Shown here in pieces: positions 2,948-32,951 of a stretch of DNA of 42,023 nt (positions are counted from its first letter, which is position 1; each line of letters starts with the position of its first letter). The notes under the pieces were generated by a model, which worked only from the letters and a program-made list of their open reading frames with translations, searched no databases and had not been told where the DNA came from. The position numbers and the translations under genes are program-made. This DNA comes from a virus, in IMG/VR virus record IMGVR_UViG_3300010885_018066, positions 1-42,023 of that record. The stretch is one strand, 5' to 3'.

Positions 2948-4277
2948 GATTGTGTTTATTGTAAATCTTCGCCAATTTGTTTTTAACCGGCTCCGAAAGT
3001 TTTTGAAGCGGCAAAGGTGTAACAATTTCGGTTACAGGAATGCCCGTTCTTTCGGTAATGTATTTATCTTCCACCTTCCACCCCGATTGATACAGCTTGT
3101 AAATAATATCTGCGGTCTTGTCGTTTGCCTCGTCCTCGTATTTGCGCTTCTGAATTAATTCTTGGTTGTTGGAAAACTTAAACTTAAATTTTGTGTCGAT
3201 AATAAAACCGAGAGCAATCATTTTAGGGACTAATTCACCATTCACAACCTCCTCTAAAAAAGCACCGTCCACAGCTTGCTTGTCCATCATCGCTAAGTAA
3301 GCTGGTGACTGCTCGCCATCTCCACTACCTAACTTGCCGGGTGTTGAATCAAGCGCGTCCGCGTGGCCTAAAAATATCTTTGTAATCTTAGCCTCCAATC
3401 TCTTTTCAAAGTCGGGGTAAATTTTAAACCCTTGCCCCGCACCACTGCTTTCAACTAATTCTAATTCATCAAAAGCGTCCAACAGGATAGCTCCCGCACT
3501 ACCCATTTTTAACATGGCGTTCATAAATTCCTGTCGCTCACCTTCGTCTGTTTTCTGCGTTTTCCCCTTACGAATAGGCATCCCGAATAATTCAGCAGCG
3601 TCCGCATTATTGCCGAGCAAGTTGCGCGAAAGTATATCATAAATAGCCACATTGTAAAGCAATCCATATCCGCAATCACTCGCACCAACATCGCTATCAG
3701 TTTTTACATACACGTGCCAATTCTTAAACGGCTCTTCCATAAACTGCGCACCTGATAACGAGTAAACAAACTGCGTTACGTTCAAGCGGTCGGGGCTTAC
3801 GTTCCACCTCCGAACTATCTTTATTGACTTGAACTCGTCATTTTGGATTTCATTCAAAGCAATAAGTGAGTAGCCAAAAAACTTTGCCTGTAAAGCATAT
3901 TTCAGAAAGGTGCCGAACCATTTTTTGTTGAACAGCTTCTTTAAATCTTCGTTCTCATTTCCTTTTTCATCTACAAAACTCCATTCTCGCAACAGCGATA
4001 AGTCCAAACGCTTCTCCATACAAGCGTAAGTTTGCCCGCCTAAAATAGTATCGTTGTAAATTCTTTGCGCCTTAACTCGGTGTGGGTACCATGCCGATTC
4101 CATTTCTGTCATGGAATCTTTGAGCGTTTGCATATCCGAACGGACGCGCAATAGTTGAACCGGTGAAATGTAGGTGCCGAGGTTCTTCGGGTTTTCATTT
4201 AGATTAACCGGTGCGGCATAGGTGGGTTGCATTGCATTTTTTACAGCCGATAAACCACGTTCAAATATGTTTGCCAT
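2940..4277 (-). CDS. Portal protein, Mu gp29-like (DUF935) (445 aa)
   Basis: Dodecameric portal at the DNA-entry vertex. The length and order fit the Mu gp29/DUF935 family: an N-terminal stem-like part with SAWYPHRVKAQRIYNDTI (about residue 62), a conserved wing RLDLSLLREWSF, the FFGYSLIALNEI block, then the 'LLYNVAIYDILSRNLLGNNADAAELFGMPIRKGK' region (about residues 205-240, quoted by name) and DALDSTPGKLGSGDGEQSPAY. It lies immediately downstream of the connector and terminase genes and 2 nt after the connector gene's stop. Confidence 0.9.
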   Translation of the reverse strand: MANIFERGLSAVKNAMQPTYAAPVNLNENPKNLGTYISPVQLLRVRSDMQTLKDSMTEMESAWYPHRVKAQRIYNDTILGGQTYACMEKRLDLSLLREWSFVDEKGNENEDLKKLFNKKWFGTFLKYALQAKFFGYSLIALNEIQNDEFKSIKIVRRWNVSPDRLNVTQFVYSLSGAQFMEEPFKNWHVYVKTDSDVGASDCGYGLLYNVAIYDILSRNLLGNNADAAELFGMPIRKGKTQKTDEGERQEFMNAMLKMGSAGAILLDAFDELELVESSGAGQGFKIYPDFEKRLEAKITKIFLGHADALDSTPGKLGSGDGEQSPAYLAMMDKQAVDGAFLEEVVNGELVPKMIALGFIIDTKFKFKFSNNQELIQKRKYEDEANDKTADIIYKLYQSGWKVEDKYITERTGIPVTEIVTPLPLQKLSEPVKNKLAKIYNKHNHG

Positions 4278-6958: not shown

Positions 6959-7055
6959 TTTTCACAGATTTTTCACAGATTTGAGCGGTTGGGTGGTATT
7001 GCACCCCTTCTTTTACTTGGAAAGTAAACGCATTACTTTTATGCTTCAACCGCAT
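6936..7055 (-). CDS. Possible 39-aa ORF upstream of TerS
   Basis: Starts MRLKHKSNAFTFQVKEGVQY and ends KSVKNAKKGRC; basic. ATG 7055 lies 18 nt after a TATCTTTGC box (7082-7074), matching TAnnTTTG. It overlaps TerS by 23 nt and its end is encoded by an 11-bp tandem repeat, so it may instead be an untranslated leader containing the TerS control or packaging site. Confidence 0.3.
   Translation of the reverse strand: MRLKHKSNAFTFQVKEGVQYHPTAQICEKSVKNAKKGRC
6958..6979. repeat. Tandem 11-bp repeat (TTTTTCACAGA x2) at the TerS start
   Basis: Two perfect copies end to end, directly touching the TerS start codon. Such direct repeats near terS are often terminase-binding (pac/cos) or regulatory sites; this role is inferred only. 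Confidence 0.45.
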
Positions 7056-14492: not shown

Positions 14493-15167
14493 ATGAAAGA
14501 GTTTAAAATAAGAGCGAGTGCAGGAAGTAAAATCTGCACCGCTAAATCAAAACCGAACATCCTTCCTGTTGGCGCAAAAACGTATTGCGAACAATGGGTT
14601 AAGCAACAGATTTACCAACGCAGAAAGGAGTTTACAAGTAAGTTTACGGCAAAGGGCGAAATGGTTGAACTTGAATCTTTCAAAACTATTGGGAAACACT
14701 TAAAAATTGAATTACTTGTTAAGAATGACGAGTATTTTGAAAATGATTTTGCGAGTGGTTCTCCAGATTGCTTACCTGGTGAAATAGTTATTGATGCAAA
14801 AAATAGTTGGGATTGCTTTTCCTTCCCCCTATTTGATGATGAAATACCAAACGATGACAATTATTATCAAGGTCAGATTTATATGTGGCTAACGGGGCTT
14901 AAAATGGCTAAGTTCGTTTATGTTCTTTCTGATACACCCGAAAAACTTATTCAGCAGGAAGCAAAGTCTTACTGTTACAAAGCGGGCTACGATTTAACGC
15001 CCGAAATAGTTGATGAAATGCGCGAAAGAATGACTTATGCAAACATTCCCGATGAATACAAAATAAAGGTGTTTGATGTTGTGCGGAATGATGATGATAT
15101 TGAGTTTATTAAGCAGCGGGTTATTCTTTGCCGGGAGTACATAAAAACGCTTGTAAAAATCAATTAG
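14493..15167 (+). CDS. YqaJ/RecB-like PD-(D/E)XK exonuclease (224 aa)
   Basis: Seen: GEMVE (residues 55-59), GSPD with D92, IVIDAKNSW with D101 and K103, and YYQGQIYMW at about 127, i.e. the E...D...(D)xK...Q pattern of viral recombinase nucleases. It would resect double-strand ends for the ATPase encoded 2 nt upstream. Full-length, normal start. Confidence 0.8.
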   Translation: MKEFKIRASAGSKICTAKSKPNILPVGAKTYCEQWVKQQIYQRRKEFTSKFTAKGEMVELESFKTIGKHLKIELLVKNDEYFENDFASGSPDCLPGEIVIDAKNSWDCFSFPLFDDEIPNDDNYYQGQIYMWLTGLKMAKFVYVLSDTPEKLIQQEAKSYCYKAGYDLTPEIVDEMRERMTYANIPDEYKIKVFDVVRNDDDIEFIKQRVILCREYIKTLVKIN

Positions 15168-15193: not shown

Positions 15194-15340
15194 ATGACAC
15201 GCTTCCATTTCTACCCTATCCTATATTCATCCTACGTATTCCGGCTATTATACCTACACACAGGATATGATGACCGTAGCCTAATATGGATAGTGAACGG
15301 AAAGATACATGATTTTTTATTCATCAAAATTAAAGCATAA
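15194..15340 (+). CDS. Small hypothetical protein (48 aa), stop codon inside attC-like site
   Basis: Starts MTRFHFYPILYSSYVFRLLY, rich in aromatics. Its stop TAA (15338-15340) is part of the GCATAAC half-site that opens the first cassette-like array, as also seen for two other genes here. No matching GTT end was found upstream, so it may be phage-borne rather than a cassette. No family recognised. Confidence 0.45.
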   Translation: MTRFHFYPILYSSYVFRLLYLHTGYDDRSLIWIVNGKIHDFLFIKIKA

Positions 15341-15473
15341 CGTATCGAGGCTTGTTTTAGTGCCGATTATTAACAATAAATTAAATTAGAATGACACAGA
15401 TAAAATCAAAGGCAAAAGTTTCTACGAAGCCAAAAATTAAGGCATTGAAACAAGGTGCTGTTAGCAGCAGTGC
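15335..15473 (+). repeat. attC-like site S1
   Basis: GCATAAC (15335-15341), then CTTGTTTTAGTGCC (15351-15364), which pairs at all 14 positions (two as G-T) with GGCATTGAAACAAG (15441-15454), then GTTAGCAGCAGTGC (15460-15473). Outer ends are not complementary to each other, while the inner pair is, as expected for a junction of two different integron cassettes. Confidence 0.55.
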
Positions 15474-15621
15474 TAATGGTAAAATTGAAGGTGAAAAGTA
15501 TTACTATATGCACTCAGGCGATTGCTATGTATATGTTACATATTGCGAAAACTGTAAAAAAGAAGTAGGTAGTTGGACACCTGATGAAGCTGCTAATAAG
15601 TGGTTGGAGCATTGCTGCTAA
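15391..15621 (+). CDS. Cassette 1: small Cys-containing protein (up to 76 aa)
   Basis: The frame ends in YVTYCENCKKEVGSWTPDEA...WLEHCC, with C-x2-C and a CC end; this faintly resembles the zinc-ribbon half of Lar-type restriction-alleviation proteins, but I would not assign it. The first 23 codons (from ATG 15391) are encoded by the loop and arm of attC-like site S1, so the native protein may begin later (Met 15508) or be a fusion made on insertion. The stop lies within the GCTAAC half-site. Cassette ends GTTAGCAGCAGTGC (15460) and GCATTGCTGCTAAC (15609-15622) are complementary at 13 of 14. Confidence 0.5.
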   Translation: MTQIKSKAKVSTKPKIKALKQGAVSSSANGKIEGEKYYYMHSGDCYVYVTYCENCKKEVGSWTPDEAANKWLEHCC

Positions 15622-15705
15622 CGCTGACGGGTATGGGAAGTAATTTTTAACAATAAAAGTCAAATGAAAAGGAAAAAATTATTTACTATACCCGATGTTA
15701 TGCCC
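15609..15705 (+). repeat. attC-like site S2
   Basis: GCATTGCTGCTAAC (15609-15622), inner stem CGGGTAT (15628-15634) with ATACCCG (15688-15694), a second paired block 15638-15648 with 15674-15684, then GTTATGCCC (15697-15705). Confidence 0.6.
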
Positions 15706-15864
15706 GCCCTGCGAAAGTTTGGTTTTCTCAAAAGGGGGTGGCTGTTTGTATGGGATTCTTTTGCATCTGATGGAGCATCATTTAGAAGTGCAATGGAATA
15801 TTGCGATGAACAATATTGGTATAATGTAGGAAAAACAATACGAGAAAATGAAAAGCGTAAATAG
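15664..15864 (+). CDS. Uncertain ORF spanning site S2 (66 aa)
   Basis: Starts MKRKKLFTIPDVMPALRKFG. The first dozen codons lie in the arm of site S2, and the middle is encoded by one copy of the 22-bp inverted repeat. An in-frame ATG at 15700 lies just after the half-site. It overlaps the PP-loop gene by 17 nt. The C-terminal half (SAMEYCDEQYWYNVGKTIRE) looks protein-like, so a small gene carried in the cassette is possible. Confidence 0.35.
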   Translation: MKRKKLFTIPDVMPALRKFGFLKRGWLFVWDSFASDGASFRSAMEYCDEQYWYNVGKTIRENEKRK

Positions 15865-16709
15865 TATATCAGGAGGAAAAACAAGTGCGTATATGGCTAC
15901 GCATTATCCAGCAGACTACGAAGTATTCGCATTGGTTACTATTGAAGATAAGAACTGCTCACCAAAGGATGAAGCACTTATCAAAATAGTATCAGATAAG
16001 ATAGGTAAGGAGTTTATTGCGACAGCCGAAAGCGATTTGACATTGAAGGTAGTTATTGATTTAGAGCAGAAGATAGGCAAGGAAATTATTTGGGTTACAG
16101 GAAATACTTTTGAGAAGGTGAACAGAAAAGCAACGGGAGGTAAAGGATTGCCGAACCAACAATGGAGATTTTGCACTACTGAAATGAAGATGCGACCTAT
16201 ATGGGATTGGTGGTTTAAGAATATAGGCGAGAAGATTAAAATGGGTATCGGTTTCCGATACGATGAAATGGAACGAGCCGAAAGATTATCAACTTCATTT
16301 AAGGGAATTGTAGGAAAATCAGCAATGGGAACGAGAAACAAATGGGAAGAAATAGAATGGCGTGAAGGTTGTTTTCCATTGATTGAAAATAAGATAGTTC
16401 ACTATCAGGTAAAACAATGGGCAGATAAAAGTGGTATTATATTTCCATCCGATAGTAACTGCGTAGGTTGTTTTCATAAATCTATTCAGCAACTACGAAA
16501 GAACTTTGAAGATAATCCAGAGAAGATGCAATGGTTTGCAGACCAAGAAACAAATGCAAGATGGAAAAAGGAAATGAAGTACGAACAAATTAAAGCAGTT
16601 GGACTGCAACAAGATTTTAATTTCGGAGAAGGTAGCGGATGTAATGGTGGATTCTGTACGGACTAAATCGTATGGTGGTTGGCTGTTACCCCCTTTTGAG
16701 AAAACCAAA
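15718..16709. repeat. 22-bp perfect inverted repeat flanking the PP-loop gene
   Basis: 15718-15739 (begins TTTGGTTTTC, ends GGGGGT) is repeated exactly in inverse orientation at 16688-16709. Just outside them lie the 9-bp ends GTTATGCCC (15697-15705) and GGGCATAAC (16712-16720), also exact inverse copies. Confidence 0.85.
15848..16666 (+). CDS. Cassette 2: PP-loop (PAPS reductase-like) protein (272 aa)
   Basis: Adenine nucleotide alpha-hydrolase superfamily. PP-loop SISGGKTS at residues 6-13. Further Cys motifs WRFCTTEMKMRPI (about 107-119) and SNCVGCFHK (about 204-212), plus a Cys-rich end GSGCNGGFCTD. These could bind a metal or Fe-S cluster, as in sulfur-transfer members. Such genes are common in phages, but reaction and substrate cannot be deduced; sulfur modification of a nucleotide or DNA (DndC-like) is one option. 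The gene lies between inverse-repeated ends and overlaps the previous ORF by 17 nt. Confidence 0.75.
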   Translation: MKSVNSISGGKTSAYMATHYPADYEVFALVTIEDKNCSPKDEALIKIVSDKIGKEFIATAESDLTLKVVIDLEQKIGKEIIWVTGNTFEKVNRKATGGKGLPNQQWRFCTTEMKMRPIWDWWFKNIGEKIKMGIGFRYDEMERAERLSTSFKGIVGKSAMGTRNKWEEIEWREGCFPLIENKIVHYQVKQWADKSGIIFPSDSNCVGCFHKSIQQLRKNFEDNPEKMQWFADQETNARWKKEMKYEQIKAVGLQQDFNFGEGSGCNGGFCTD

Positions 16710-16711
16710 TT

Positions 16712-16738
16712 GGGCATAACTGGCGAATTGGCGAATGT
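16712..16738 (+). repeat. Terminal half-site S3 after cassette 2
   Basis: GGGCATAAC (16712-16720), exact inverse copy of the cassette's 5' end, followed by an 8-bp direct repeat (TGGCGAAT twice) and GTTAC. No inner stem is visible, so the site looks degenerate; the array ends here. Confidence 0.45.
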
Positions 16739-16761: not shown

Positions 16762-16977
16762 ATGAAAGAATATAGTGTAATTCTTATTCGTGTGGTAAAT
16801 GGCATCGGAATAGACAAAAAGGCTAATGGATATTTATTAGACGGAACTCCCGTAAAAAGAAAAGTTTACAACGGAAGACTATGTTATCAGAACGGAAAAA
16901 CAAGAGTAGGATACAAGACACTTTCTGAATCAATACCTGTTAAAATAGAATTGAATAATTTTGAATATCCTTTTTAA
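16762..16977 (+). CDS. Small hypothetical protein (71 aa)
   Basis: Starts MKEYSVILIRVVNGIGIDKK and looks like a small beta-rich fold (YLLDGTPVKRKVYNGRLCYQ). ATG 16762 chosen over 16735, which lies in the array boundary. No family recognised. Confidence 0.5.
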   Translation: MKEYSVILIRVVNGIGIDKKANGYLLDGTPVKRKVYNGRLCYQNGKTRVGYKTLSESIPVKIELNNFEYPF

Positions 16978-16987
16978 AATAAAAATA

Positions 16988-17323
16988 ATGACACAAGAAC
17001 AAGTTAAACGAATTATGGAAGTTATGGAATCAGGAATGACGCAACGCGAAGCGGAGGGAAAGTTAGGAATCAGCGCCCGAACAATAGGCAAGGTTGCAAA
17101 GGAAAATGGATTTATACCGAACCGAATAGAGCAGAATCGCAAAGGACAATTAAAGTCCGAAAAGAACCTCGATAGGTGGGCAGAAATGACACAACTAAGC
17201 CTATGGAATAGAAAGCCACGAGCGGGTAATACTAAAGCGGTTCAGCGCGTTACTACATCGCACGTTCGATTACCAGCGCCTGAGAAATGGAGTGGTGATT
17301 CTTTCATATTAAATTGCTTTTGA
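16988..17323 (+). CDS. Helix-turn-helix protein (111 aa)
   Basis: Starts MTQEQVKRIMEVMESGMTQR; residues about 15-41 (GMTQREAEGKLGISARTIGK) form a Hin/resolvase-type helix-turn-helix. Basic tail. Start ATG 16988, not 16961 which would overlap the previous gene. Probably a DNA-binding regulator of the phage; target unknown. Confidence 0.6.
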   Translation: MTQEQVKRIMEVMESGMTQREAEGKLGISARTIGKVAKENGFIPNRIEQNRKGQLKSEKNLDRWAEMTQLSLWNRKPRAGNTKAVQRVTTSHVRLPAPEKWSGDSFILNCF

Positions 17324-23229: not shown

Positions 23230-23280
23230 AAAAATAAATTGTTGTAGTTTGTTGTAGTTTCGGTTTTTAGTTTTAATATT

Positions 23281-23382
23281 GCACCGATAACGGTTTGCAT
23301 ATAAGAGATGTGGCACTTATACGAATGTTTAAATCAAGGTACAAAGCCAAATGTGCCATATCTTTTATACGCTGTTATGTGC
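23281..23382 (+). repeat. attC-like site S4
   Basis: GCACCGATAAC (23281-23291), a 16-bp inner stem (23301-23316 with 23353-23368, two G-T pairs), then GTTATGTGC (23374-23382). Left boundary of the second array. Confidence 0.6.
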
Positions 23383-23418
23383 TGGGCGGATTATCATCAC
23401 TAAATTTAATTTAAAAAA

Positions 23419-23694
23419 ATGGATTTTAACAAAATAGAAATTATATTAAACGGAGAAATTGTCAATCCTGAAATTATTTCTTTCAATTTAGAACAAGACG
23501 AAAAATCAATAACTCAAAATATCAAATTTAATAGTAGAGAGGATATGATTTTAGCAATACAAAGAGTTGGAATAAAAATACATTACGGAGTAGGTGATTT
23601 TCCTGTCAGCTATTCTTTGCCTGATGATATAGGCTTAAATAATGATTCTTTGAAATTTTTAACTACAATTAAACGTTCTGAGTGGTTGCCGTAG
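23419..23694 (+). CDS. Cassette 3: hypothetical protein (91 aa)
   Basis: Starts MDFNKIEIILNGEIVNPEII; a beta-rich small protein that resembles immunity-type or contact-system accessory folds only in general shape. Complete gene between GTTATGTGC (23374) and GCACCAATAAC (23699-23709); these ends are complementary apart from a 2-nt bulge. A-rich start region is typical of Bacteroidota. No family recognised. Confidence 0.55.
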   Translation: MDFNKIEIILNGEIVNPEIISFNLEQDEKSITQNIKFNSREDMILAIQRVGIKIHYGVGDFPVSYSLPDDIGLNNDSLKFLTTIKRSEWLP

Positions 23695-23698
23695 ACTT

Positions 23699-23843
23699 GC
23701 ACCAATAACGGTTCTCGGCTTTGCGATGGTGGTGGACTTTGAAATACAAAAGTTGAAAATATGCAGTACAGTTTATTTGAAAATATAGTGCCCAATGACT
23801 TCCGTCAGCCCCCATTGCAGCAATGCAGTGTTGGCAGTAGTGC
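23699..23843 (+). repeat. attC-like site S5
   Basis: GCACCAATAAC (23699-23709), a short inner pairing GCGATGG (23723-23729) with CCATTGC (23812-23818), then GTTGGCAGTAGTGC (23830-23843). The inner stem is weaker than in S4 and S6. Confidence 0.45.
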
Positions 23844-23868
23844 GGTCAATTCAAGTGGGCATTATGTG

Positions 23869-24165
23869 ATGCTTACTGGAATAAGGGAACGAAACTTTTT
23901 AGCTTACAATGTTGGTGCTTTTGAAATGTCAAATGAAGATGTGTCGGACGAAGATATTTTGCACTTGAAATACAAAGAATTAACTCCAACAATCCAAAAG
24001 TTGAAATCTGAAACTTGGTCTTGTGATTGCGAATACTTCTTTGTCTTACAGGCAGAAGGAATTTATTTAATGAGTGTTTCAACAGATACTTTTTTTCTGT
24101 GCAAAAAACATAGTATGAAATTTATTAAACACTTTATAAATGCTCCTTTGAAATTGAAGAAGTAG
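23869..24165 (+). CDS. Cassette 4: hypothetical protein (98 aa; frame open from 23761)
   Basis: Starts MLTGIRERNFLAYNVGAFEM in the short form. The frame reaches back to ATG 23761 (134 aa), but that part is encoded by site S5, so the native start is probably ATG 23869 or GTG 23866. Acidic N-terminal half, CDCEYFFVLQ in the middle. Cassette ends GTTGGCAGTAGTGC and GCATTACTGCCAAC are complementary at 13 of 14. No family recognised. Confidence 0.5.
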   Translation: MLTGIRERNFLAYNVGAFEMSNEDVSDEDILHLKYKELTPTIQKLKSETWSCDCEYFFVLQAEGIYLMSVSTDTFFLCKKHSMKFIKHFINAPLKLKK

Positions 24166-24309
24166 CATTACTGCCAACGTTTGCGGCTTGGCGAAGGGGG
24201 GGAATTTAACCCACAAAAGCCGATTAGAATTACTAATGTTCAATAACAGATAAATGATGATAGAAGGACTAAAGCCCCCATTTTGCCAAGCCGATGTTAG
24301 CGGAAGGCA
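24165..24309 (+). repeat. attC-like site S6 (best formed)
   Basis: GCATTACTGCCAAC (24165-24178), perfect 9-bp inner stem CGGCTTGGC (24184-24192) with GCCAAGCCG (24285-24293), extended by GGGGG (24196-24200) with CCCCC (24275-24279), then GTTAGCGGAAGGCA (24296-24309). The two outer parts do not pair with each other but pair with the far ends of the two neighbouring cassettes. Confidence 0.7.
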
Positions 24310-25009
24310 TGGGTTAATTCAAGGGAACGCAATGGATTTAATTTGCGATTTAGACGACCATAGTATTGACTTAACAATATTAGACCCCGATTATCAGGAT
24401 TGGGATAAACTTTGCGAAGAAGGTTTAATTTGTCAAGCAGTAAGGGTTACAAAACTAACAGGAAACATTATTTGCTTTACTAAGCAGCCATTTGATTTTG
24501 AATTAAGAAACGAAGTAAATCACATATTTAGGCGTGAAATTATTTGGAGTTTTTCAAATGGCGGTGCTTGGGTAAGTAAGCGAATGCCACTTGTATCCTT
24601 CCAAAAAATATTCTGGCTTACATTGAGTAAAGACTTTTATGTAGATGTAAGAACTGGATTAGATTACAATGAAGGCACAAAATCAATGAAGCGAAGTAGT
24701 AAGGTATTTGGGGACTACAAAGCGGAAGGAAGGCAATTTGATAAATCAGATGAAGGAACCTGGATAAGAGATCACTATCATTTTAATAAGCCACATACGG
24801 GAAAAATACCTGCAAAGCCAAAAGATTTAATACAGATACTTATTAAATGCTTTTGCCCTGAAAATGGGATAGTTTTAGACCCGTTTTTTGGGAGTGGAAT
24901 AGTTGGCGAAGTTTGTCAAGAATTAAATAGGAATTTTATAGCATACGAAATTGATGAACAAAGGGTAAAAATGTTCAATGATAAGCAGGGTGCTAATGCT
25001 TTCCGCTAA
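24254..25009 (+). CDS. Cassette 5: DNA amino-methyltransferase (251 aa)
   Basis: Beta-class N4-cytosine/N6-adenine methyltransferase: LIQGNAMDLI opening (about 21-30), catalytic motif LDPDY (42-46, DPDY instead of DPPY), then FTKQPFDF, and C-terminal SAM motif VLDPFFGSGIVGEV (about 214-227). The first 14 codons from ATG 24254 lie in site S6, upstream of the cassette's GTT end; the next ATG (24332) would cut the conserved LIQG strand, so the working start may be borrowed from the previous cassette. The stop TAA lies in the CGCTAAC half-site at the other end. No restriction partner nearby. Confidence 0.8.
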   Translation: MMIEGLKPPFCQADVSGRHGLIQGNAMDLICDLDDHSIDLTILDPDYQDWDKLCEEGLICQAVRVTKLTGNIICFTKQPFDFELRNEVNHIFRREIIWSFSNGGAWVSKRMPLVSFQKIFWLTLSKDFYVDVRTGLDYNEGTKSMKRSSKVFGDYKAEGRQFDKSDEGTWIRDHYHFNKPHTGKIPAKPKDLIQILIKCFCPENGIVLDPFFGSGIVGEVCQELNRNFIAYEIDEQRVKMFNDKQGANAFR

Positions 25010-25010
25010 C
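24997..25010 (+). repeat. Terminal half-site S7
   Basis: TGCTTTCCGCTAAC, complementary at 13 of 14 to the cassette's 5' end (24296-24309). No inner arm follows, so the array ends in a truncated site. Confidence 0.6.
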
Positions 25011-26978: not shown

Positions 26979-28907
26979 TTATTGATAGGGGAAAAACATG
27001 ATTAATTGATTCGTTCCTGTAAGCCCTGAAAATGCTTGAGTACCGCCTACTATAATATTCGTAACACTCGCTTTTGTACCCACCAACTTTACGGAGTTAG
27101 CGAAGTCGGCAGTTTGAGCCGCTGAAACAGAGGTTGCTGATGCTCCATAAACAGTTGGATTAGTGGGTGAGCCAGAAGAAGTACAATAAAGCGCACCAAT
27201 AACATAAGTACCTGCGGAAACGGTATAAGGTGTAGTAAATGCTTTTGACTGCCATGTGTTAGCCGTACCCTTCCAAATATTACCGTCATTTGCGGAAGTA
27301 TCTACAATAGTGACCGTACCACCACTAAGCGAACCAATAAAAATACCGTTATAGTTATTTGCGGTATAGGCGCCTTGCGTACCTTGAAACCACTTTACCC
27401 CTTGTATGGTGTATGATTGCTTAAACCTTACAAGGCAATAAATGGCATTTTGATTAGTAAGAAGCGCAGTTGTGGCCGTTAATCTATCAATCCCAATACC
27501 ATAAGTCCCTGTTACTATTGCTGAACCTACATCTCGGTACATTTGAAACCAATCATCGCCATCGGTTCCGTTAGTTCCTGTACTCCCTGTTATTCCCGTA
27601 CTACCTGTAGCACCTGCGCTACCATTCGAGCCGTTACTACCCGTTGCACCAGTAAAGCCAGTTGTACCCGTTGCTCCTGTCGTTCCATTACTTCCGTTCG
27701 AACCGTTTGTTCCTGTTGCGCCTGTACTGCCCGTTATTCCTGTTGTTCCATTTGTTCCGTTAGTTCCATTTGAGCCGTTTGCCCCTGTTGCGCCCGTTGC
27801 GCCCGTCTGCCCCGAACTTGTTATAGCTATAAATACCGTTGCACCCGAACCAAAATTAGTTGTGCCTGTACCTCCCGAACTTACTAAAGAAACAGGATAT
27901 TGCCAATATGAAGTCGATGTACCTGCATTGAAATTAGTTGGCGTTCCTGTAACTACCCACGTCTGATAATTATTTGAAACATTTCTATCTTGAATAGTAA
28001 TGTTTTGACCAACTGAAAGCAATGCTAAGAAAATATCAATATCTAAATTGTCATCCGTAAGGTGGGATATGTCTAATACGGTTGCGGATATTTGTGTTGC
28101 ATTATTCCATTGCACCCTTCCATTTGAAGGATAGCCCGATGTGGTAGTTGTTTTGGCAAGATATTTCCAAATAGATATAGATGCACCATCCGAACCCGTT
28201 GCGCCCGTTGCCCCAGTACTACCTGGCGCACCCGTAACACCGTTTGTGCCATTTGTTCCATTGCTCCCAGCGCTCCCTGTTGCCCCAGTAGCTCCGTTGC
28301 TGCCCGTAGCGCCCGTTGAACCCGTTACGCCTGTAACTCCATTAGTTCCATTTGTGCCTGCGGCTCCTGTTGCCCCGTTGCTGCCATTCGTTCCGTTGCT
28401 ACCCGTAGCGCCAACTACGCCCGTTACTCCGTTACTGCCAGTAGCGCCAGTTGAACCCATTCCACCAGCGGGACCAGTTGGACCAGTTCCACCTCTACCC
28501 GTTCCGCCTACCGCCCAATGACCTAAACCGCCACCATTTGAACACGTCCAAACATAACCTGTATTTGCCCCTTTAGGCAATGTTAATGTTGAATCTAATT
28601 TCCACGCCCCGAAATATTCTTTACTGCCCCGAAATAAATCTACCATCGAATAAACGTAATCGAACAAAAGCGAATCGGTAGGAAAAAATGTTTGCGTGTG
28701 GTTAATCATTACCGTGTCGCCAATATCATCCTTAACGTAAACGCCACTTGATGAAAGCGAGGCCGTTACTAAATGGACGTTGAAAGGGATAGTAATTTTA
28801 GTTGAAGTTTTAATTATGGCAGTGCCTTTATTATCGAAAACAACCGTCCTCGAAAAAGAATTTACAGATACAAAAAGAAGTATTAGCGTAAGTGTTTTCA
28901 ATACCAT
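26979..28907 (-). CDS. Collagen-like fibre protein with signal-type N-terminus (642 aa)
   Basis: N-terminus [20 protein letters not shown] resembles a Sec signal peptide. Two Gly-X-Y blocks, about residues 130-245 and 365-455, made mainly of G-x-T and G-x-N ([22 protein letters not shown]), are separated by a globular domain (about 247-362) and followed by a C-terminal domain of about 185 residues (begins [20 protein letters not shown]) that ends in FPYQ. Collagen-like rods with a C-terminal head are common in phage fibres. A signal peptide on a virion protein is unexpected, so it may instead be exported. Overlaps the next fibre gene by 10 nt. Confidence 0.7.
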
Positions 28908-30124
28908 TCGCCCCCGATATTCACATAAATTTTACTTGTTCCCAACAATGGCGCGACCAATCCAACCGTTCCAGCGCCCGTTCCGCTATTCGTTAAGGTT
29001 GCTATTGCTTTGTTGAAAATTACGATAATCCAATTGCCCGTTGCGCCCGATGGAAAAGAAAGTGTTGCCGATGTAATTGCGCCCGATGAAGTGATTACAT
29101 GGGTAGTATTTATTGCAGGGGATATAGTTGCACCCGTTGCCGCGATTGTATCTTTTATTGGTGTACCTACGAAAGACTGCCACGATGCCACACCATTCGC
29201 ATCGCTTGTAAGAACCTTTCGAAGCCCTTGTGAGCCGTCTTTATATTGAATCTTATTATTTAAAGCATCAATCCTAAATATTGTATCTACAGTTTGTGTA
29301 AATAAAATTCCGGTTGTATCTATATATTCAACTGCAAAATGGGAGGCTCCGGCAACAGATAGCCCCATCTGCCTTTGTTGCCCTAAAAGGTAAAACCATG
29401 CGGCACCATAAGACGAATTGTTTACGAGCATATCAACTACTAAGCTATCGTTATGGTCTGCAATATTTGCATGAGTTCCTATGTAGGCGTAACCGTTTAA
29501 ATCATTTTTGTCTTTGAAGTATCGAGCCGAAAACCCAACGCTACCATTAGCGGGATTAATTGAGCCGTAGTTACCCCTTTCTGTTGCGGTTGATAACTCC
29601 ACCGAATCACCGAATAAAGATACGTGCTTACCGCCATGCTGATACCCCCCCCTGAATATATTGTTAGTTACAAACCTCAAATCCTTATTGTCAGTTGTGC
29701 CGAGGAAATTTCCTCCTGTTGTTCCCGTGTTTCCCGTTACGCCCCAAGCAGTACCCCCATATCCCAATCCCGTTGCGCCCATAGTTCCCTTAGACCCTGT
29801 TGCCCCCGTAACGCCCTTTATACCTTGTGCGCCTGTCGCTCCAGTTCCACCCGCCACACCTGTTGCGCCCGTTACTCCAATTTGACCGCCTCCGATACTC
29901 TGCCATGAAGTGCCGTTATAAAAACGGAAACGTAAAGAATCGGTATTGAAAATAGTTACACCCTGCGGGGGTGAAACAATCGCGTTTTGCTGCGAAGTGT
30001 TTATAATTGGCGGTGTATATCCATTCACAAAATGCTTATACCCGTAAATGTTCGGTGAAGGGAATTGAGCAAATGAAATTAGCCCCGCGCAAATCAGAAT
30101 GAAAATAGAAAATAGTTTTTTCAC
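28898..30124 (-). CDS. Collagen-like protein with Sec signal peptide (408 aa)
   Basis: Clear signal peptide [20 protein letters not shown] (cleavage after SFA likely), a short N-terminal domain with [20 protein letters not shown] (about 60-78, a motif common in phage/Bacteroidota surface proteins), a Gly-X-Y block at about 85-120 ([16 protein letters not shown]), and a beta-rich C-terminal part. Either a tail fibre or a secreted adhesin. ATGA overlap with the LysM-like gene upstream. Confidence 0.7.
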
Positions 30125-30952: not shown

Positions 30953-31564
30953 TTATTGCCCATGCGTTATGAGCTTATTTTGAAGGTCGTCCACGGTTGT
31001 GTCGGTAAACTTTTTACCGTAGTAAGTAGCCAACGCGCTATTCATCGCAACTTGAAAAGCGGAGGGCGCACCGTTTCCGGGTTCGTTTACGGTTGTAGTT
31101 AATAGCGTTTTCAGAAAGTCTTTCAGGTTGTTCAAATCATCCTCTAAATTATTGAGCTTAGTAACTAAATCTTCAACCTTCACCAAGCCCTTATAACTTC
31201 CATCATTAAACTGAATTTCCTGATTCCCATTTTGCGCAGCGTTCCAAACCGTTATTGAGCTTTCGCCAACCTGCAAAAGCAATTTATCAATATCGGAAAA
31301 TAAAACGATAAACCGCTGCGGAGAATAAGTGGAATGTCCGACTACAACGGTTGAGCCAACAACCGGAAGTATTATAAGCCCGTCACACACGCCCGCGCTA
31401 AGAGCAACGTCTGGTATCTTCACTCCGTTTTCACCAATAACTACACACGTTTGTTTTTTTTCATCGTAAGAATCAACTTCGCCCCAAACGTAAAATGGTC
31501 GGTCTTTTTTAAAGTTTCCCGAAAGTTTTTGAACTGCGAACTGTATGCCTCTATCGTTACTCAT
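30953..31564 (-). CDS. Baseplate spike protein, gpV-like (203 aa)
   Basis: OB-fold-like N-terminal half: FYVWGEVDSYDEKKQTCVVI (about 24-43), VCDGLIILPVVGSTVVVGHS (about 57-76), then FSDIDKLLLQVGESSITVWN, as in P2 gpV/Mu gp45 spikes. The C-terminal half (about 125-203) is helical, NNLEDDLNNLKDFLKTLLTT. ATGA overlap with the micro-ORF upstream. Confidence 0.65.
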   Translation of the reverse strand: MSNDRGIQFAVQKLSGNFKKDRPFYVWGEVDSYDEKKQTCVVIGENGVKIPDVALSAGVCDGLIILPVVGSTVVVGHSTYSPQRFIVLFSDIDKLLLQVGESSITVWNAAQNGNQEIQFNDGSYKGLVKVEDLVTKLNNLEDDLNNLKDFLKTLLTTTVNEPGNGAPSAFQVAMNSALATYYGKKFTDTTVDDLQNKLITHGQ

Positions 31565-31674: not shown

Positions 31675-32951
31675 GATACGCTAACTTTCTTTTGTGATTG
31701 AACTTGCTTATTCGTTACTACTAATTTATAGTCAAGCGTTATTTTTTGTCTGTGTCCATTCACCCCTCCGCTATAATCAACCGCCTTAACTACATAATAA
31801 CCGTTTCTATCGGGCAAAACAGTATCTTCCAAATAAATATAGTCACCCAATTTTACACGCGGTATAGCAAACGTAACAAATGAGCCTTTGAAACCTGTGT
31901 AGTAGTATTTATTTAATTCATCTAAGCCAGCTTGTGCTAAAGTTGCCGCGCTATTTATGTTTGGATAAAAAAGTTTTCTTCTTTCCCCTTCTAAATTAGC
32001 CGGTAAATCAACATTCTTTTCTTTCTTCTTGTACCGTGGTATTCCGTTTTCATCCCAATAAACAAGAACCGTTAGCCTTTCCTGCTTCGTTTTATCTTCT
32101 CCCTGTTTATTTTGTTTCCCTGTGAAAACAGTATTGATACTTTCGCAAATCGCACTTAGTTTTATATCATCTTTTCGCGTGAAAATTAAATCGTTCGAAA
32201 TGATGTTGCGTTGGAACGTGAATTTATTCACAGGATTGCCCGACTTATCTTCTACGTAAACAAATGAGCCTATCCTCAATTCGTTACCCTTGAAATATGC
32301 CTCTAAGTGAAAGTCTTTTCGGAGGCGTTCAATTAACTGCGCGACACTTTCATTTTGTATCTGCAAATCGCCAACGTAAGATTCGGTTAGCGCGTTTATT
32401 GTAATAGGATAACTAACAATAGCACCGTCTTTAATTGTAGGAACCTGCACCGAGGACGTTAGTAATTTCATCAACTGCTCAACCGTTTTAGTTTTATCCC
32501 AAACCATATTCGGGCAAGGCGTTTGTTTTAAAATCCACATTGTATCTTCGAGCGCCAACGTGATAGGGATACCGCTTTCCACCGCGGAAACGAAGCCAAA
32601 AAAAACATTTTCAGAATCCATGTCTAAAAACTCATTCCCGCTTTCATCGTAAGTGTAATAGCCGTAATTGATAGTGACCGCGTCACCTTTGCGAAATAAA
32701 TTTTCTATCCACTTGTCTTTTTCGGCACCTTGCAAGCCGATAGCCTGCCCAGTTTTTGAATCAGTAAAATAAAGATTTTTGGGAACGGTTATTTTGCCGC
32801 TGTTGGTTAGCGAAGTCCAACTATCATTCGCCTCAAATTCATGCACGAAATCAAATGACAAGCCTAAATTTCTTTGAGTGCCATTATCATCTATCCCTAT
32901 TTGAACAAAGGATATTTTTGTAACACATCGAGGCATGAATGTTTTCGACAT
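31671..32951 (-). CDS. Baseplate hub protein, gpD-like (426 aa)
   Basis: Late-control-protein-D/T4 gp27-like. Seen: FEFDV-type opening (GLSFDFVHEFEANDSWTSLT, about 29-48), FRKGDAVTINYGYY (about 86-99), FFGFVSAVESGIPITLALED (about 116-135) and the SVAQLIERLRKDFHLEAYFK block (about 202-221), ending with VKLGDYIYLEDTVLPDRNGY..VKAVDYSGG. Lies between the DUF6046-like gene and the spike. Confidence 0.7.
   Translation of the reverse strand: MSKTFMPRCVTKISFVQIGIDDNGTQRNLGLSFDFVHEFEANDSWTSLTNSGKITVPKNLYFTDSKTGQAIGLQGAEKDKWIENLFRKGDAVTINYGYYTYDESGNEFLDMDSENVFFGFVSAVESGIPITLALEDTMWILKQTPCPNMVWDKTKTVEQLMKLLTSSVQVPTIKDGAIVSYPITINALTESYVGDLQIQNESVAQLIERLRKDFHLEAYFKGNELRIGSFVYVEDKSGNPVNKFTFQRNIISNDLIFTRKDDIKLSAICESINTVFTGKQNKQGEDKTKQERLTVLVYWDENGIPRYKKKEKNVDLPANLEGERRKLFYPNINSAATLAQAGLDELNKYYYTGFKGSFVTFAIPRVKLGDYIYLEDTVLPDRNGYYVVKAVDYSGGVNGHRQKITLDYKLVVTNKQVQSQKKVSVS

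Follow-up and report, generated by a model that had tools for sequence, protein, structure and literature searches.

Array 1, the insert described here, is likely to consist of two integron-type gene cassettes introduced by site-specific recombination at the TAAC which ends a 48-aa phage gene, a reading to which we give a probability of about 0.8. The window, that is, the whole stretch of DNA analysed (42,023 nucleotides), is a 42-kb virus record, and the virus is presented here as one of Bacteroidota-type bacteria. The insert is 1,379 bp long (15342-16720) and includes two cassettes, each headed by a hairpin site. That its units and those of a second array, array 2, are mobile, integron-type cassettes is shown by the family to which their sites belong, by their boundaries, by exchange at this very base among related phages and by the recurrence of one of them in unrelated phages; recombination itself was not observed.

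Cassette boundaries and exchange between phages

The insert is located after the 48-aa gene, behind the exonuclease gene (Table 1). The original prediction, made without database searches, had the array splitting the recombination operon. This requires refinement: the operon is enlarged and no gene is broken. The four repeats which it had proposed were all confirmed where it had placed them. These are the ends of cassette 1 (15460-15473/15609-15622, 13 of 14 as claimed), those of cassette 2 (15697-15705/16712-16720, 9 of 9 as claimed), the inner stem 15351-15364/15441-15454 (12 of 14 Watson-Crick pairs, 14 of 14 counting G.T) and the inner stem 15628-15634/15688-15694, which forms part of a 21-nt arm pairing at 18 of 21 positions. 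When its own ends are considered, cassette 1 is complementary at 14 of 15 positions. The presence of a lookalike array 8 kb away was also confirmed (23289-25010). GC content shows no foreign signal (37.1% for array 1 against 38.4-38.8% for the flanks).

Table 1. Coordinates of array 1, its flanking genes, array 2 and the matches to covariance model R2.
Feature	Position	Strand	Remarks
Exonuclease gene, upstream of the 48-aa gene and array 1	14493-15167		phrog_5715
48-aa phage gene	15194-15340	+	TAA stop 15338-15340 opens the TAAC docking site
R2 match, array 1 site 1	15331-15470		51.7 bits, E 9.5e-11
Left direct repeat GCATAAC, left border of the insert	15335-15341	+	identity with L274/L297 ends here
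attC-like site 1 (AAC ... GTT), cassette 1	15339-15462	+	stem 15351-15364/15441-15454
Cassette 1 (hairpin site + 76-aa gene)	15342-15622	+	boundaries inferred by analogy with other cassette blocks
76-aa ORF	15391-15621	+	CxxC-containing, no known family; ATG in site loop
R2 match, array 1 site 2	15612-15707		28.3 bits, E 6.7e-5
attC-like site 2, cassette 2	15620-15699	+	stem 15628-15648/15674-15694; DNA fold z -2.3 on this strand
Cassette 2 (hairpin site + 66-aa ORF + 272-aa gene)	15623-16720	+	own ends GTTATGCCC/GGGCATAAC
66-aa ORF	15664-15864	+	starts in site loop, reads through the left end of cassette 2
22-nt perfect inverted repeat, left arm	15718-15739	+	just inside cassette 2 end
TGGCTGTT copy 1	15739-15746	+	inner edge of constant left end 15696-15746
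272-aa PAPS-reductase-like protein	15848-16666	+	phrog_424, E 1.3e-26
TGGCTGTT copy 2	16680-16687	+	inner edge of constant right end 16680-16720
22-nt perfect inverted repeat, right arm	16688-16709	+	just inside cassette 2 end
Right direct repeat GCATAAC, right border of the insert	16714-16720	+	
71-aa phage gene, right flank	16762-16977	+	93-94% identical in L297 and L298/L274
HTH protein, right flank	16988-17323	+	weak HTH matches; homologous region in L274, L297
Array 2	23289-25010	+	sites 23289-23376, 23707-23832, 24176-24298
R2 match, array 2	23279-23384		E 5.3e-7
R2 match, array 2	23697-23840		E 9.9e-10
R2 match, array 2	24168-24306		E 1e-17

Two related phage contigs, L274 and L297, share both flanks of array 1 with the window (left 86-87%, right 80-81% DNA identity) and keep the 48-aa gene at the equivalent place (242-388 and 3546-3692, respectively). 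In L274, where the left flank is 86% identical up to AAAGCATAAC and the right flank 81%, the slot is occupied by a DNA methyltransferase cassette 93.5% identical to that of array 2. In L297 it is occupied by a 73-aa cassette with its own site. The three related phages therefore carry three different cassette sets between identical bounding bases, and the locus is one which receives cassettes. This alignment supports the cassette insertion previously proposed. The precise absence expected in relatives held only in part: the borders in L274 and L297 are exact to the base, yet the slot has alternative occupants, and a strictly empty site (AAAGCATAAC joined to TTTGGATTTGCGAATGTT) was not found among the related phage contigs compared. 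The arrangement that would have refuted the insertion, in which relatives have both genes at this place but lack the repeats, was not seen. L274 and L297 come from one shared metagenome, and all comparisons rest on metagenome assemblies.

Array 2 includes cassettes for proteins of 91 aa and 134 aa and for an N6/N4 DNA methyltransferase (24254-25009). The methyltransferase block (24176-25010) is found with 91-95% DNA identity in other contigs (L274, L275, L276, L277 and L278; L275 is the same contig as L214, and L277 is an overlapping relative of L276). The identity blocks stop within 1 base of the AAC cores and the flanks differ between contigs. Since the block extends from the hairpin upstream of the gene to the AAC after its stop codon, a phage cassette is composed of a site and the gene downstream. 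This refines the earlier view of site ownership: the hairpin site moves with the downstream gene and not with the upstream one. The methyltransferase is predicted to start MMIEGLKPPFCQAD-V..., with its start codon within the site loop. The possibility that each gene takes its start codon from the site of the previous cassette was rejected, as the methyltransferase blocks show that the site moves with the downstream gene. It was also observed that phage cassette proteins in L177, L207, L214, L143 and L275 and at 24254-24298 of the window begin with PPFCQAD or FAKPML, which the 3' arm of the site encodes; the N-terminal peptide is site-encoded, so that unrelated cassette proteins share an N-terminus.

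Ordinary phage mosaicism, in which modules are swapped by homologous or illegitimate recombination, with the hairpins serving as operon terminators or regulatory stems, could account for conserved flanks and for a locus beside phage recombination genes. Phages do swap modules by such recombination. However, the identity blocks are bounded at AAC cores within a base, in several contexts and in the absence of flanking homology, and the sites fit a covarying family found in chromosomal arrays (see below). We consider this explanation very unlikely and largely refuted. Also very unlikely is a static relic, a host integron block captured once and now immobile. In its favour, the phage has no integrase, and attC clusters that lack one are commonly interpreted as degraded integrons (PMC9024848). 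Against it, the locus has three alleles made up of different cassettes, which contradicts a relic unless the L274 and L297 assemblies are artefacts; the 91-95% identical methyltransferase cassette occurs at different loci; and host arrays have the opposite gene orientation. A transposon or insertion sequence was rejected, there being no transposase among the array 1 genes.

In the 76-aa ORF, the core GTT is read in frame as Val and the stop TAA belongs to the next TAAC core; a viral scan for relatives of the protein gave none. Only the 16 end-encoded residues of the 66-aa ORF have a viral relative, owing to a cassette end shared with contig L328, and for this reason the ORF is possibly not a real gene. 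The family of the 272-aa protein is represented by 80 viral loci at 61-83% identity and was not found in the genome collection searched (genome_contigs); as a side observation, this PAPS-reductase-like protein belongs to a phage-restricted family. No terminal repeats like those of cassette 2 surround the gene in the 79 viral relatives checked, and it is therefore not tied to the cassette ends. The first 51 and last 41 bases of cassette 2 are 100% identical in the phage contig L328 (2997-3047 and 3660-3700), where they lie within another array and around a different gene, while a 42-nt cassette 2 end was found in none of 395 Bacteroidota genomes. As both ends carry TGGCTGTT at their inner edge, joining them would give a long hairpin whose loop is TGGCTGTT. 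It is possible that the cargo of cassette 2 was inserted into the loop of a perfect hairpin, and the arrangement might represent a gene-capture intermediate, but it remains unexplained.

A site family shared with Bacteroidota chromosomes

The whole window was scanned without bias for the pattern AAC-spacer-stem-loop-stem-spacer-GTT, with 100 shuffles as a control. The repeats go beyond what chance would give: the four best matches on the plus strand are the two sites of array 1 and two of those of array 2. The score of site 15620-15699 corresponds to 0.04 shuffle matches per strand and that of site 15339-15462 to 1.18, which is weak by the shuffle test alone. An early pattern scan of viral contigs (TTTTGCCAAGCCN{1,4}GTTA) was set aside: it gave about as many loci as chance would, and the structural scan retained only some of them.

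The window was then searched with a covariance model, R2, trained on 25 aligned sites from L266, L267 and L272 and on none from the window, with the inner stem written by hand as explicit structure. L272, which supplies four of the 25 sites, has the phage-type gene orientation and is possibly phage DNA binned into a MAG. R2 replaced a first model, R1, discarded because its automatic consensus yielded no base pair. The paired positions of the training sites covary (0.313 against 0.098 +/- 0.013 in shuffles), with lower values when the arms are slid. Exactly five R2 matches below E 1e-4 occur in the window and these are the five array sites (Table 1), site 2 of array 1 being the weakest; the best match outside the arrays in the whole window reaches 13.1 bits (E 0.44). 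Rfam includes no relevant family for the sites. A separate Rfam tRNA match was noted at 6984-7053 on the minus strand (43.9 bits, above the gathering score) and is not reported by ARAGORN. Two long genes at 26979-30124, also on the minus strand, have collagen-like G-x-T repeats and probably encode tail fibre proteins.

A fragment of an array 2 site matched Bacteroidota chromosomes, including those of a Bacteroidia MAG (L266) and of Kaistella antarctica (L267), both of which carry long arrays. R2 matches are present in 78 of 148 Bacteroidota genomes and in none of 150 Pseudomonadota genomes (a set taken from the phylum of a Hyphomicrobiales MAG). Within the family of Kaistella, 46 of 60 genomes have R2 matches and 35 of 60 have the recombinase described below. 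Long chromosomal arrays were observed in L266, L267 and L314-L327, many of them near an IntI-like recombinase without the IntI insertion. Such Bacteroidota arrays appear to have been missed by published integron surveys.

Gene orientation, stop codons and the recombinase

Orientation was measured as the strand, relative to the site, of the longest ORF after it. Of the 159 chromosomal sites, 144 have this ORF on the opposite strand and one has it on the strand of the site; of the 86 sites of viral contigs, 61 have it on the strand of the site and nine on the opposite strand. Sites within one array are not independent, and site-level p-values are too small. Counted by locus, all 16 chromosomal loci (16/16) are opposite and most resolved viral loci are same-strand. 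Chromosomal and phage sites agree in which of their strands folds better (135:19 and 79:7, respectively), so that the polarity of the site is kept and the genes are flipped.

The phage site is found at the 5' end of its gene, often with a start codon in its loop. Frames that start at a loop ATG and continue for 35 codons or more beyond the core were counted for 37 of 86 viral sites (only frames avoiding the TGTTAG stop) against 17 of 159 chromosomal sites. On the left, the preceding gene has the TAA of the TAAC as its stop codon in the window and in L274, L275, L276, L278 and L297. More generally, the first TAAC is a stop codon in 16 of 30 viral arrays, compared to 101 of 1465 for all TAAC at these loci (ORFs of 40 codons or more, in a set which includes related loci; Fisher p 4e-11). 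Phage arrays show a tendency to begin at the TAA/C of a preceding stop codon.

The search for tyrosine recombinases gave none for the window and none for the records of L275, L276, L278, L290, L295 and L297, but such enzymes are present in the records of L279 and of two arrayed contigs, L211 and L189. One recombinase family is often found close to the chromosomal arrays. From a reading of two match lists, it lies approximately 4 kb or less from a site in at least 13 genomes of the Kaistella family (G006, G027, G031, G033, G043, G045, G048, G049, G053, G057, G066, G069 and G074); in several others it is far from the sites or missing from the listed matches. The chromosomal recombinase has an IntI-like end (SPLDHL, SPFDDL) and scores below the NCBI cut-off for integron integrases. 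It has 26 residues where IntI4 (2A3V) has 69, about 43 fewer, and thus lacks the IntI-specific insertion. The simplest reading is that the host supplies the recombinase in trans, which is inferred and not shown.

These observations bear on a further alternative, in which the sites are moved by another enzyme (a phage or satellite recombinase or a single-strand transposase) and merely resemble those of integrons. It is favoured by the window lacking a tyrosine recombinase, by the reversed gene orientation compared to chromosomal arrays, by the missing IntI insertion in the nearby chromosomal recombinases and by the tyrosine recombinases carried by some arrayed contigs (L211, L189). Against it, phage and chromosomal sites form a single sequence and structure family with the same better-folding strand, and the chromosomal sites often adjoin one recombinase family. 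We consider it unlikely and retain the integron-type reading.

Relation to known integrons and proposed mechanism

Several features of integron cassettes are met: a palindromic AAC/GTT core with covarying, paired inner arms, strand asymmetry of folding (checked for the two array 1 sites as well), boundaries at the core and exchange of cassettes as units. Of the strict R boxes (RYYYAAC/GTTRRRY), nothing beyond AAC and GTT is invariant; GTTAGCA and GTTATGC deviate, as do chromosomal sites of the family. The R-box consensus is known to be loose. The canonical orientation, with the gene opposite to the folding strand and the site 3' to it, is not met by the phage sites (61:9) but is met by the chromosomal arrays (144:1). 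The criteria for a complete integron are also unmet, as there is no tyrosine integrase in the window and the recombinases of the chromosomal arrays lack the IntI insertion. Those for a CALIN are met, with two sites in array 1, three in array 2 and no integrase, although this was not determined with IntegronFinder or HattCI. Because the recombinase and orientation features came out unmet, strict membership of the IntI/attC family is not claimed; we regard the phage units as a variant of integron-type gene cassettes.

CALINs have been described in phages, including Polaribacter phage P12002L (Qi et al. 2023, PMC9892861), where IntI1 recombined five of the six phage attC sites tested and where attC sites "with divergent directions" were put down to possible mosaicism. 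Like the arrays described here, these include cassettes with palindromic sites, lack an integrase and often carry DNA methyltransferases. In contrast, the present family is Bacteroidota-wide, with a longer stem, genes on the folding strand, a 5' site and often a start codon in the loop, and stop-codon docking and exchange between related phages are shown here. R2 gives two weak matches in P12002L (E 0.0045 and 0.017) with the gene orientation seen in the window; these have not been established as the sites tested in PMC9892861. They are located on the minus strand of NC_028924 (L313) at 31110-31321 and 32216-32288, and the annotated start of gp37 lies inside one of them.

Sedentary chromosomal integrons resemble the system in their AAC/GTT core, arrayed hairpins, single gene per site and one better-folding strand, and the Bacteroidota arrays often adjoin a tyrosine recombinase with an IntI-like C-terminus. 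They differ in the spacers, which here are 4-5 nt and 1-2 nt; central spacers of canonical attC sites are approximately 5-6 nt on both sides. They also differ in that the array recombinase here lacks about 43 residues of IntI4 and that the phage gene orientation is reversed. Short ORFs in attI1 and attC aid translation of integron cassettes (PMC8876359) and likewise place translation signals inside a recombination site, but there they aid the following cassette, whereas here the gene starts in its own site and reads through. In known integrons, the choice of the bottom strand sets cassette orientation (PMC8946536). As regards expression, which is itself inferred, the phage arrays break this rule.

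Complete integrons are reported to be nearly absent from Bacteroidetes; a 2022 survey of complete RefSeq genomes names a single one, in Salinibacter ruber (PMC9024848), and the phylum Bacteroidota is not mentioned among the taxon-specific attC models of PMC8352920. Our search of the open-access literature, which did not extend to subscription papers, found nothing equivalent on Bacteroidota integrons or reversed cassettes, and neither cassette start codons inside their own attC nor stop-codon docking.

In the mechanism we propose, a cassette would include an attC-like hairpin site of the Bacteroidota type at its 5' end, followed by the gene; the 76-aa gene and the methyltransferase would have their start codon in the site loop. 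The folded single strand may be acted on by a tyrosine recombinase of the chromosomal-array type; it would be supplied by the host in trans, as the phage has none. Insertion would place the new gene behind an intact stop codon and regenerate the TAAC core, so that more cassettes could be added. Expression would depend on transcription of the phage operon. Cassettes reading away from the TAA/C may be those which phages retain because they would add genes without harm, the upstream gene remaining whole and one gene in the same direction being gained. A point against this mechanism is that no hairpin follows the last cassette of each array; none would be expected with a site at the 5' end, but that position is inferred.

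We also lean, with less assurance, towards a bolder reading in which Bacteroidota phages have their own cassette pool, a mirror image of the known one: recombination would use the coding strand, each gene would have an attC at its 5' end which often gives the start codon, arrays would start at the TAA/C of phage operons and a phylum-wide host recombinase without the IntI insertion would act on them. If true, this would be a phage-adapted branch of integrons which turns stop codons into docking sites.

The cassettes provide a concrete, base-exact route for phages to trade accessory genes such as DNA methyltransferases while leaving their operons undisrupted, and R2 is a tool for finding more such sites. 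The orientation swap between host and phage makes selection of cassette orientation testable. The results link phage cassettes to a large and apparently under-recognised integron-like system in Bacteroidota.
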